NCBI RefSeq assembly: GCF_000382045.1 | Contig: NZ_KB907459.1 | Span: 62,001-126,000, forward strand | Direction of reading: 5' to 3' | DNA length: 64,000 bases | Source: Variovorax atrisoli 110B | Lineage (GTDB): Bacteria; Pseudomonadota; Gammaproteobacteria; Burkholderiales; Burkholderiaceae_C | The notes under the pieces: model-generated | Database searches by the model: none | What the model saw: only the letters and a program-made list of their open reading frames with translations | Told to the model about the DNA's origin: nothing | Part shown: in pieces, positions 13,455 through 15,353 of the stretch | Position numbering within the stretch: the first letter of the stretch is position 1 | How the letters are laid out: each line of letters starts with the position of its first letter | Position numbers and translations under genes: made by a program

Positions 13455-13997
13455 ATGGGGAACAGGATCAACTCGCCCGCCGTTCTGTGGGCCGTGACCG
13501 CCGTGGTGGCGCTGGCCACTGCCGGTTGCGCATCCCGCGGCGGATCGTCGGGTAGCCAGCCCGCAGCGGCGCCCGCACCTGCCGCAGCTGCTCCGGCACC
13601 CGCGGCGCGCGGCGGCGCCAAGCCGGGCATGGACGCCCAGGGCAACGTGGTCGACTCGTCCAAGGTCGAGGCCGGCAGCGGCCGCACCGTGAAGGGCCTG
13701 AACGGCTACGAAGGCGAGATCACCGGCAACCCGGCCCGCAACAGCAAGTTCGCGCGGCTGCAGATCGGCATGAGCGCCAAACAGGTCACCGACCTCGCCG
13801 GACCGCCGACGGACCAGGGCGCATATGTAACCGGCAAGGCCTTCATTCCCTTCTATTTCGGCAGCGACCGCCATCGCTTCGAGATGACCTACAAGGGCCA
13901 GGGACGCCTGATCTTCGCGGGCGGCGGCATGGGAGATTTCTCTTCCGGCAACCTGATCTGGATCATCCACAACCCCAACGAATCGGGCTACCGGTAA
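13455..13997 (+). CDS. Lipoprotein with SmpA/BamE-like domain
   Basis: 180 residues. The start at 13455 is supported by AAGGAG (13442-13447). A signal peptide ends in the lipobox ATAGC with Cys25, followed by an Ala/Pro-rich disordered linker to about residue 60. The C-terminal domain RLQIGMSAKQVTDLAGPP then FEMTYKGQGRLIFAG resembles the small SmpA/OmlA/BamE fold. That fold is common in outer-membrane lipoproteins, but this is not obviously BamE itself. A clear terminator follows at 14009-14030. Confidence 0.8.
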   Translation: MGNRINSPAVLWAVTAVVALATAGCASRGGSSGSQPAAAPAPAAAAPAPAARGGAKPGMDAQGNVVDSSKVEAGSGRTVKGLNGYEGEITGNPARNSKFARLQIGMSAKQVTDLAGPPTDQGAYVTGKAFIPFYFGSDRHRFEMTYKGQGRLIFAGGGMGDFSSGNLIWIIHNPNESGYR

Positions 13998-14008
13998 ACA
14001 ACAGCAGG

Positions 14009-14030
14009 CCCGGTCGCTTGACCGGGTTTT
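14009..14030 (+). terminator. Rho-independent terminator after the lipoprotein gene
   Basis: Stem CCCGGTC (14009-14015) and GACCGGG (14020-14026) with a GCTT loop, followed by TTTT. It separates the lipoprotein gene from the aromatic leader region. Confidence 0.8.
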
Positions 14031-14048
14031 GCTTTTCCGTGCTACATT
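14018..14048 (+). promoter_or_regulatory. Putative promoter of the DAHP synthase leader
   Basis: TTGACC (14018-14023), 19-bp spacer, extended -10 element TGC-TACATT (hexamer 14043-14048). It overlaps the upstream terminator. Transcription would begin at about 14055, within a few bases of the leader-peptide ATG at 14057. Confidence 0.5.
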
Positions 14049-14056
14049 GCTAACCC

Positions 14057-14131
14057 ATGTCCGCTGTCCGCGCCTACTTTTTTGCCTACTTTTGGTTCCC
14101 GGTTTCCGGCGGACGAGAGGCGAGCGCGTAA
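14057..14131 (+). CDS. Aromatic leader peptide of the DAHP synthase attenuator
   Basis: A 24-codon open frame (ATG 14057, TAA 14129-14131), too short for ordinary gene calling. Residues 7-14 read YFFAYFWF: two Tyr, four Phe and one Trp in eight codons (14075-14098). No Shine-Dalgarno sequence is visible. The predicted transcription start is at or just before the ATG, so it may be translated leaderless. The codon run is followed immediately by the pairing segments of a terminator/antiterminator. By analogy with PheL and TrpL, it would act as the sensor of charged aromatic tRNAs. This reading is inference from sequence, but the codon bias is very strong. Confidence 0.78.
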   Translation: MSAVRAYFFAYFWFPVSGGREASA

Positions 14132-14190
14132 AAAGCACACACGAATACCCTCCCAGAACCGCCGGTGGCCCCAAGCCCCGGCGGTTTTTT
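14066..14190 (+). promoter_or_regulatory. Transcription attenuator with competing hairpins upstream of DAHP synthase
   Basis: Four mutually exclusive segments can be seen. Segment 1, GTCCGC (14066-14071), can pair with GCGGAC in segment 2 (14109-14114). Segment 2, CCGGCGG (14106-14112), can pair with CCGCCGG in segment 3 (14159-14165). Segment 3, AACCGCCGG (14157-14165), pairs over 9 bp with segment 4, CCGGCGGTT (14178-14186), followed by T residues to 14190: a terminator. A ribosome stalled on the aromatic codons would block 1:2 and favour the 2:3 antiterminator. The terminator ends 45 bp before the DAHP synthase ATG. Confidence 0.78.
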
Positions 14191-14234
14191 CTTGGCCTCT
14201 CGATTCCCACTCCAGCACAAAAGGAAGAAGCACC

Positions 14235-15353
14235 ATGAGCACGAACATCCCCACCGCCAGCGAGAGCTGGTATGCGCGCGTCGAAAAAACCAGCAAGACC
14301 GACGACGAACGCATCAAGGACATCAACGTGCTCCCGCCTCCCGAACACCTCATCCGCTTCTTCCCCATCCGCGGCACCGCGGTCGAGACGCTGATCGAGG
14401 ACACCCGCCAGCGCATCCACAACATCATGGCCGGCAAGGACGACCGGCTGCTGGTGATCATGGGCCCGTGCTCGATCCACGACCCGGCCGCAGCGCTCGA
14501 ATACGCACGCCGCCTCAAGGCCGAGCGCGAGAAGTACGCCGGCACGCTGGAGATCGTGATGCGCGTGTATTTCGAGAAGCCGCGCACCACGGTCGGCTGG
14601 AAGGGCCTCATCAACGACCCGTACCTGGACGAGAGCTTCCGCATCGACGAGGGCCTTCGCATCGCACGCCAGTTGCTGATCGACATCAACCGCATGGGCC
14701 TGCCGGCGGGCAGCGAGTTCCTCGACGTGATCTCGCCGCAGTACATCGGCGACCTGATCTCCTGGGGCGCCATCGGCGCGCGCACCACCGAAAGCCAGGT
14801 GCACCGCGAGCTGGCCTCGGGCCTGTCGGCGCCCATCGGCTTCAAGAACGGCACGGACGGCAACATCCGCATCGCCACCGACGCCATCCAGGCGGCTGCG
14901 CGCGGCCATCACTTCCTCTCGGTGCACAAGAACGGCCAGGTCGCGATCGTGCAGACCAACGGCAACCGCGACTGCCACGTGATCCTGCGCGGCGGCAAGG
15001 CGCCCAACTACGACGCAGCCAGCGTCGAGGCCGCCTGCAAGGACCTGGAGGCCGCCAAGCTGCCGCCTACGCTGATGGTCGACTGCAGCCACGCCAACAG
15101 CTCCAAGCAGCACCAGAAGCAGATCGACGTGGCGAAGGACATCGCCGCGCAGATCGCGGACGGCTCCAAGCGCGTCTTCGGCGTGATGGTCGAGAGCCAC
15201 CTGCAGTCGGGCGCCCAGAAGTTCACGCCCGGCAAGGACCAGCTCGCGGGCCTCGAATACGGCAAGAGCATCACCGACGCCTGCCTGGGCTGGGAAGACT
15301 CGGTGCAGGTGCTGGACACGCTCTCGCAAGCGGTCAAGCGCCGCCGGGGCTGA
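14235..15353 (+). CDS. aroG: 3-deoxy-7-phosphoheptulonate (DAHP) synthase, class I alpha
   Basis: 372 residues from the ATG at 14235, preceded by AAGGAAGAAG. Class Ialpha (AroF/G/H) motifs are present: MGPCSIHDP, FEKPRTTVGWKG, GARTTESQVHRELASGLS, GFKNGTDGN and DCSHANSSKQH. The enzyme condenses phosphoenolpyruvate and erythrose-4-phosphate, the committed step to chorismate and Phe, Tyr and Trp, and is normally feedback-inhibited by one of these. Which of AroF, AroG or AroH it matches is not decided from sequence alone. The leader at 14057-14190 predicts control by aromatic aminoacyl-tRNA supply. A longer in-frame extension to 14082 would run through the attenuator and is rejected. Confidence 0.95.
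   Translation: MSTNIPTASESWYARVEKTSKTDDERIKDINVLPPPEHLIRFFPIRGTAVETLIEDTRQRIHNIMAGKDDRLLVIMGPCSIHDPAAALEYARRLKAEREKYAGTLEIVMRVYFEKPRTTVGWKGLINDPYLDESFRIDEGLRIARQLLIDINRMGLPAGSEFLDVISPQYIGDLISWGAIGARTTESQVHRELASGLSAPIGFKNGTDGNIRIATDAIQAAARGHHFLSVHKNGQVAIVQTNGNRDCHVILRGGKAPNYDAASVEAACKDLEAAKLPPTLMVDCSHANSSKQHQKQIDVAKDIAAQIADGSKRVFGVMVESHLQSGAQKFTPGKDQLAGLEYGKSITDACLGWEDSVQVLDTLSQAVKRRRG

Follow-up and report, generated by a model that had tools for sequence, protein, structure and literature searches.

A candidate transcription attenuator rich in Phe, Tyr and Trp codons upstream of DAHP synthase in Variovorax and related Burkholderiales

DAHP synthase carries out the first step toward Phe, Tyr and Trp, and a gene for this enzyme in Variovorax atrisoli 110B is preceded by a short reading frame crowded with aromatic codons. 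The locus raises the question of whether a single RNA leader might tie entry into the pathway to its end products, as proposed in an earlier note on the window (the whole stretch of 64,000 nt that was analyzed). We consider it very likely that DAHP synthase is controlled here by ribosome-mediated transcription attenuation of the trp/phe type. The features on which this reading is built are collected in Table 1.

Table 1 Features of the leader region and of the gene behind it, in positions of the window.
Feature	Position	Strand	Basis or remark
Putative extended -10 promoter element TGCTACATT	14040..14048	+	Promoter role suggested by consensus and position
Predicted transcription start, 0-2 nt before the leader AUG	14055..14057	+	Predicted from -10 spacing and absence of a Shine-Dalgarno motif
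Leader peptide ORF MSAVRAYFFAYFWFPVSGGREASA, 24 codons	14057..14131	+	Conserved; aromatic content frame-specific
Candidate regulatory codons Tyr-Phe-Phe-Ala-Tyr-Phe-Trp-Phe (codons 7-14)	14075..14098	+	
Segment 1', candidate 5' arm of the anti-antiterminator, overlapping codons 12-14 (Phe-Trp-Phe)	14089..14102	+	Fold; cognate preference in 87 leaders
Segment 2, candidate 3' arm of the anti-antiterminator; 14106-14112 and 14117-14120 also 5' side of the antiterminator	14106..14120	+	
Segment 3a (CCUC), partner of GAGG 14117-14120 in the antiterminator	14149..14152	+	Fold; cognate preference
Segment 3 core (CCGCCGG), partner of 14106-14112 (antiterminator) or 14178-14184 (terminator)	14159..14165	+	
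Intrinsic terminator hairpin 3:4, arms 14155-14165/14178-14188, inner 3-bp helix 14167-14169/14175-14177	14155..14188	+	
U tract (U6) of the terminator	14185..14190	+	Sequence
Shine-Dalgarno-like AGGAAG of the DAHP synthase gene	14222..14227	+	Motif by inspection
Class I-alpha DAHP synthase (aroFGH family), 372 aa, putatively regulated gene	14235..15353	+	Profile match, solved relatives

The earlier note had taken the gene behind the leader for a DAHP synthase, and profile comparison confirmed this assignment (TIGR00034 aroFGH, 544 bits versus a cut-off of 173). Its best solved relatives include a Phe-sensitive DAHP synthase, and its product acts in the synthesis of the amino acids that the leader encodes. 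Another DAHP synthase of the same genome, 58% identical to this one, has no leader of the kind. TrpR was not found in this genome by a search in which the controls E. coli and B. subtilis gave matches. For TyrR there was no match at the family cut-off; twelve matches fell within model positions 189-513, none of them over the N-terminal part. Tandem pairs of DAHP synthase genes were seen elsewhere in the order and class (G021:C1:2636369-2638529; G357:C127:14423-16499).

The 24-codon frame with its YFFAYFWF run at codons 7-14 was found, to the base, where the earlier note had placed it, so that codons for the products of the pathway are clustered within a short ORF. For comparison we took 80 named loci of relatives from genome contigs, of which one (L031), being without upstream sequence, was left out, yielding 79. 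An ATG-initiated sORF with at least six Phe, Tyr or Trp residues per ten codons lies upstream of DAHP synthase in 67 of these 79. The same density was reached in none of 760 control windows (400 nt, from the same loci) and in none of 1580 shuffles. Lowering the bar to at least four per ten codons gave 74 of the 79 named loci, versus 22/760 control windows and 77/1580 shuffles. The aromatic density upstream of DAHP synthase is not a matter of chance. It is also specific to the reading frame: over 115 leaders, the mean maximum of aromatics per ten codons was 6.69 in the ORF frame versus 2.50 and 1.94 in the other two. Phe is preferentially written TTT in the leaders of the named relatives (202 of 310 Phe codons, versus 133 of 608 in the downstream genes), and the third codon positions of the leaders are variable (TTT/TTC, TAT/TAC).

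Behind the aromatic codons follow the segments that could form the alternative hairpins. The earlier note had placed these correctly (GTCCGC, 14066-14071; CCGGCGGAC, 14106-14114; AACCGCCGG, 14157-14165; CCGGCGGTT, 14178-14186; T run, 14185-14190), and its claim of a mutually exclusive antiterminator (2:3) and terminator (3:4) found support, as this arrangement is conserved upstream of DAHP synthase. An intrinsic terminator with a U tract lies between leader and gene, and the antiterminator shares segment 3 with it. When the leader was folded, it did better than shuffled sequences (z -2.5; 3 of 200 shuffles were as good). The terminator stretch 14120-14192 folds to -26.3 kcal/mol. The antiterminator, formed by CCGGCGG (14106-14112) with CCGCCGG (14159-14165) and by GAGG with CCUC, reaches -19.7 kcal/mol in a fold of 14106-14175, in which segment 4 is not yet made, and the candidate anti-antiterminator (14089-14102 with 14106-14120) reaches -15.2 kcal/mol in a fold of 14087-14122. 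In the minimum for the whole leader (14040-14195, segment 4 present), the inner 1':2 helix stands together with the terminator. When 14093-14175 was folded, with segment 1' mostly present and no segment 4, the antiterminator was preferred over 1':2 (-26.4 kcal/mol); termination must therefore rely on the order of folding, with 1':2 first, or on a ribosome covering segment 2. A simple terminator scan of 13500-14700 does not list the terminator of Table 1, because its rules want an uninterrupted stem and a loop of 3-8 bases.

A hairpin with a T run follows in all 116 pooled leaders, 74 of which had been picked partly for a GC-rich arm and T run; in the independent part, picked on aromatic content alone, it was present in 42 of 42. 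From this pooled set one locus (L104) was left out, being at the same place as L171. Alignment of the named relatives (A1, 73 sequences) leaves out a divergent Phe-only leader (L070) and a locus in which no terminator was found (L032). In all 73 aligned sequences, five pairs of the terminator core are identical and a sixth is paired; a core so nearly invariant cannot by itself demonstrate covariation. RNAalifold on the 73 sequences returned the terminator only, with no pair changed on both sides.

Co-variation was instead seen in the bases flanking the cores, which change together from C-G-C to T-A-T in segments 2, 3 and 4. It was counted in 105 of the 116 leaders; for the other 11, one of the anchors (segment 2, segment 3 or the T run) was not found. 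The base next to the core in segments 2/3/4 is C/G/C in 49, T/A/T in 28, A/G/C in 16, T/G/C in 7 and C/A/T in 2, with single leaders for C/C/A, C/G/A and G/C/G. In the 30 leaders with A in segment 3, T stands in segment 4 of all 30 and in segment 2 of 28; in the 73 leaders with G there, segment 4 carries C in 72 and segment 2 carries C, or T as a wobble partner, in 57. At this first flank, segment 3 can pair with segment 4 in 103 of the 105 leaders and with segment 2 in 86; the 19 unpaired 2:3 cases are 16 A-G, two C-A and one C-C. In 104 leaders, the flanks of the 2:3 cores pair in 78% of cells in register and in no more than 49% after a shift of 1-4 nt, and a best 2:3 match of at least 7 bp was reached by 75 of 116 leaders versus 73 of 1160 shuffled ones. 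In L070 (CAIMTJ010000092.1), with the Phe-only leader MKNFLQFGFFKNFLTAPGAAQRV, segments 2/3/4 have jointly changed to GGGCGG/CCGCCC/GGGCGG. In L183 (G394) the terminator arms now read AACCGCTAAA/TTTAGCGGTT, and pairing of segment 2 (TGGCGGT) with segment 3 is retained at 7 positions, wobble included.

For the remaining helices, we compared cognate partners in 87 of 94 leaders, again leaving out those (7) that lacked one of these anchors. In this test, which like the counts above ignores relatedness, both the 1':2 pairing (56/87, p 7e-4) and the helix 2b:3a (57/87, p 1e-5) favor cognate partners. In many relatives, 1':2 takes the form of a UUCUC:GAGAG helix, whose five column pairs are standard in 60 to 73 of the 73 sequences. 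The pairing that the earlier note had drawn between its segment 1 (14066-14071) and segment 2 is possible in this sequence and shows no conservation (cognate in 38/87, p 0.34); this segment was dropped as no co-evolution with segment 2 was seen over the 87 leaders. The likelier anti-antiterminator arm is 14089-14102. In sum, the main line of the earlier note, with the aromatic leader, the 2:3/3:4 switch and its conservation, was upheld, and its segment 1 as drawn was not. Three features had escaped it: the putative -10 box abutting the AUG, a candidate hairpin that overlaps the aromatic codons, and GAGG with CCUC as a second 2:3 helix.

Looking at the distribution of the element, the aromatic run and the pairings are kept upstream of DAHP synthase, and this well beyond Variovorax, Acidovorax and Polaromonas, the genera to which the earlier note had pointed for comparison. 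Of the 74 named loci with an aromatic sORF (at least 4/10), 73 also have a terminator-like arm and T run. The exception, L032 (JAJTCN010000100.1, a Ramlibacter MAG), has an intact aromatic leader ending 14 nt before the enzyme match, with no terminator found, either through a natural deletion or through an assembly fault. The leader is absent from 5 of the 79 named loci, four of Polynucleobacter (L071, L075, L078, L080) and one of Cupriavidus (L081). As two further Polynucleobacter loci (L061, L062), of six named ones, do have it, gain or loss of the leader could be traced within this genus. A locus labelled Solimonas (L010, NZ_JAUASX010000005.1) carries the same gene (86% identity) behind a leader and terminator of this kind. 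Solimonas is a gammaproteobacterium, and the locus would represent either horizontal transfer or contamination of the assembly.

To survey further genomes, a covariance model (R1) was built from 73 sequences including the window's own site, which it scores at 134.8 bits. Within the family, 195 of a sample of 200 genomes gave a match (E 0.01), with matches counted wherever they lay relative to the gene and with some of the relatives used in building possibly among the genomes searched. In the order, DAHP synthase was found in 94 of 120 sampled genomes, and an aromatic leader with terminator in 19 of 40 loci. These 40 loci come from the 43 best matches ranking below the window's own, with G102, G045 and G115 passed over, and the proportion therefore leans to closer relatives. 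In a second, Burkholderia-like family (that of G116, a genome with ncS01), the leader was present at 24 of 30 loci among the matches listed. Outside the order, just 1 of the 20 loci fetched across the class had a convincing leader (L140); another (L133) had a high count, Trp-rich by frame, but no T run behind it. The leader DNA had no match in the plasmid collection.

At gathering score, none of the Rfam families matched the element, those for amino-acid leaders (Trp, Phe and others) included. Within 13980-14260, five weak matches up to E 10 were obtained, none of them to an amino-acid leader family. Among the weak matches, RF02865 (ncS01, Burkholderia sRNA 1) was full-length, with 17.8 bits versus a gathering cut-off of 58. 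ncS01 is present in 0 of 60 genomes of the window's family and in 14 of 41 of the Burkholderia-like family, where none of its copies adjoins a DAHP synthase match (three loci inspected). Because these copies lie away from DAHP synthase, we took the weak match as chance.

The region in front of the leader suggests how its transcription might begin. Between the putative extended -10 box and the leader AUG lie 8 nt. The pattern TGnTAnn(T/G)T lies near the ATG in 71 of 72 named relatives, in 69 of them 6-8 nt before it, and the base preceding the AUG is C or T in 67 of the 72. An SD-like motif before the leader AUG was found in only 1 of these 72, and no conserved -35 box was seen in the relatives. 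A sigma-70 scan of 13500-14700, which requires a -35 box, found no promoter. The usual distance from a -10 box to the start is 6-9 nt. From the spacing of the box to the AUG and the lack of a Shine-Dalgarno motif, we infer that the leader is probably translated from a leaderless, or nearly leaderless, transcript. A terminator-like hairpin (14006-14029) lies behind the upstream gene, directly before the -10 box; one was found, and shuffles gave a mean of 1.0.

The extended -10 pattern within 60 nt of the AUG is absent from 24 of 24 leaders of the Burkholderia-like family and from 14 of 16 order loci, so the leaderless layout is not general and appears mainly as a feature of the window's own family. 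The pattern is common to two Polynucleobacter leaders and L070. Searching the own genome for a -10 box plus ATG gave 3 matches versus 5 for the reversed control; the motif alone is therefore uninformative genome-wide, though 2 of the 3 matches are attenuator leaders. In front of leuA of the same genome (G000:C1:1164163-1164301, L124), a Leu-rich leader MNKISLLALLALPHGRRR is followed by a hairpin with T run, and the same extended -10 box TGTGCTACATT lies 10 nt before its ATG. By this layout, it is probably a second attenuator of the genome and probably leaderless as well. The covariance model matched it weakly (24.4 bits, E 0.195). About 280 nt upstream of the match start of trpE (L185), there is a short ORF with two Trp codons (MFVHHVIQTGEGSRGAWPWRRHTSLTV); this upstream region showed no clear terminator with a U tract and no clear attenuator.

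Taken as an attenuator, the element would work as follows. Transcription would begin at the leader AUG or no more than about 2 nt from it, with a ribosome trailing RNA polymerase through the leader. When charged tRNA-Phe, tRNA-Tyr or tRNA-Trp is scarce, the ribosome would stall in the aromatic run (codons 7-14). Stalled at codons 11-14, it would hide segment 1', and segment 2 (CCGGCGG and GAGG) would be free to pair with segment 3 (CCUC and CCGCCGG), which would block the terminator and allow DAHP synthase to be transcribed. With all three plentiful, the ribosome would reach the stop codon and segment 2 would be held in 1':2 or lie under the ribosome; with segment 2 unavailable, the 3:4 hairpin and the U tract would form and transcription would end near 14190. 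Stalling early, at codons 7-9, would not hide 1' and is predicted to matter less. Over 105 leaders, the median distance from the start of the last aromatic codon to segment 2 is 14 nt; for the last Trp codon it is 17 nt (quartiles 15-18 nt, n=87). These distances are close to the forward reach of a stalled ribosome. In this reading, the attenuator would be complete, as the earlier note had it, and would respond to all three end products.

The last point has one serious competitor, in which the same attenuator senses mainly Phe, or Phe and Tyr, and the Trp codon is incidental. All 116 pooled leaders contain Phe, 113 contain Tyr and 97 contain Trp, with all three present in 96, and the order-wide loci include leaders without Trp, or without both Trp and Tyr (MTRRFFFFFYYFPCLLADGTG, MSRTFGQLFFFFPRPLAEGIV), as this alternative would have it. 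Trp is, however, a rare residue in proteins, and yet at least one Trp is kept in 67 of 72 named relatives, all three aromatics likewise in 67 of 72; moreover, the last Trp stands within the distance given above, a good place for a stall. A precedent for uneven sensing comes from the AroR leader of C. glutamicum, which has Phe-Tyr-Phe yet responds to limitation of Phe and not of Tyr, according to passages of PMC11802643. We regard sensing of mainly Phe, or Phe and Tyr, as a real possibility, at somewhat more than one chance in three.

An additional action in trans of the short terminated RNA or of the peptide, like that of rnTrpL/peTrpL in Sinorhizobium meliloti, appears rather unlikely to us. 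The terminated RNA would measure about 135 nt from a start at or near the AUG and would resemble rnTrpL in this respect (passages of PMC7298713), but the peptide sequence is not conserved between families. Between families the peptides in fact share little beyond their aromatics (MSQRFYFFFYFWSYLSHRRAK, MTRRFFFFFYYFPCLLADGTG, MSLRAPHWFFFGFFLPLAEGIDRRC, MLRTAPYFFWFWYPTLLAAGRK, MSAKFYFYFFWHLKPLADREG). That aromatic composition is kept and residue order is not fits the reading of codons by charged tRNA and argues against a fixed arrest peptide, which would sense a small ligand in the exit tunnel instead. A pattern FWFS...GGRE does recur in many named relatives; its GGRE part, however, is the coding image of RNA segment 2, and in other families the aromatics differ in order, number and flanks, which an arrest peptide could hardly tolerate, so that we hold this explanation for very improbable. 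Practically negligible is the idea that the hairpin simply terminates the upstream gene, whose frame stops at 13997 with 59 nt left to the leader ATG, and that the sORF is an accident of T-rich sequence: another hairpin (14006-14029) lies nearer to that gene, though one such site is expected by chance, the -10 box sits between the two hairpins, the aromatic density is absent from controls and frame-specific, and conservation speaks against it.

The attenuator reading has known counterparts. The enteric leaders pheL-pheA, pheM-pheST and trpL-trpE have codons for the product in the leader and the pairings 1:2, 2:3 and 3:4. Each of them deals with one amino acid, targets a branch enzyme or a tRNA synthetase, and has a 5' UTR with a ribosome-binding site. 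The Variovorax leader is like them in its product codons and its 2:3 and 3:4 pairings, has a candidate for 1:2, and differs in the number of amino acids, the target and the predicted lack of a 5' UTR. A counterpart with the same target is aroF of Corynebacterium glutamicum, for which attenuation through the leader peptide AroR, acting upon limitation of Phe and not of Tyr, is reported (Neshat et al. 2014, as cited in passages of PMC11802643 and PMC4046766). AroR likewise has Phe and Tyr codons and attenuates a DAHP synthase gene, but belongs to the Actinobacteria and has a Phe-Tyr-Phe stretch, Trp being unmentioned in these passages; we set it beside the Variovorax leader by description only, as an analogue. 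In Acholeplasma, a uORF (uORFC-13-1) with Phe codon(s) beside a terminator was predicted upstream of aroF, again before a DAHP synthase; it differs in its host, in the report of at least one Phe and in being a different RNA (passages of PMC8632094). Attenuation of aroF has also been proposed for E. coli and Shewanella (Camakaris 1980, as cited in passages of PMC2659441 and PMC8632094), sharing with the present case the idea of attenuated DAHP synthase and differing in relying on Tyr-tRNA.

Leaderless RNAs of this kind are described for trpL of S. meliloti (passages of PMC7298713) and for leader peptides of Streptomyces lividans (passages of PMC8079986). There, the RNA begins at the leader AUG, as predicted for the Variovorax leader; the taxa and amino acids are others, and those starts come from data, whereas the one considered here is predicted. 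Regarding the protein regulators, aroF and aroH of E. coli are reported to be under TyrR and TrpR (passages of PMC11802643), and a regulon survey of Proteobacteria describes TrpR and TyrR regulons for gammaproteobacteria lineages (passages of PMC5343134). A leader combining Phe, Tyr and Trp, or this element in Burkholderiales, was not found in the available passages of the literature searched, most subscription journals being outside its scope, and a term look-up in the available text of PMC2965389, PMC6429828, PMC2864571 and PMC1262725 gave no mention of DAHP synthase, aroF or aroG. Attenuation of DAHP synthase is hence already known (Corynebacterium, Phe), and combined sensing of Phe, Tyr and Trp in Burkholderiales is apparently undescribed.

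The broadest proposal is that one leaderless attenuator acts as a three-input OR gate at the committed step, where shortage of Phe, Tyr or Trp would each release DAHP synthase; that the codon order, with Tyr and Phe first and Trp beside the switch hairpin, would weight each input; and that this would replace the enteric TyrR/TrpR control throughout one large family and much of the order. We see the chances for and against this proposal as balanced. Because Phe-only, Phe+Tyr and Phe+Tyr+Trp leaders coexist in the relatives, the effect of codon identity and position on the response is directly testable. The leader may also offer a ready control point for engineering the production of aromatics in these bacteria, and its probable leaderless start would add a case of attenuation without a Shine-Dalgarno motif in this group. 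If the attenuator reading is true, these bacteria would control entry into a central pathway by a regulatory element that is almost family-wide and apparently undescribed, and that pools three end products in one RNA by a simple logic.
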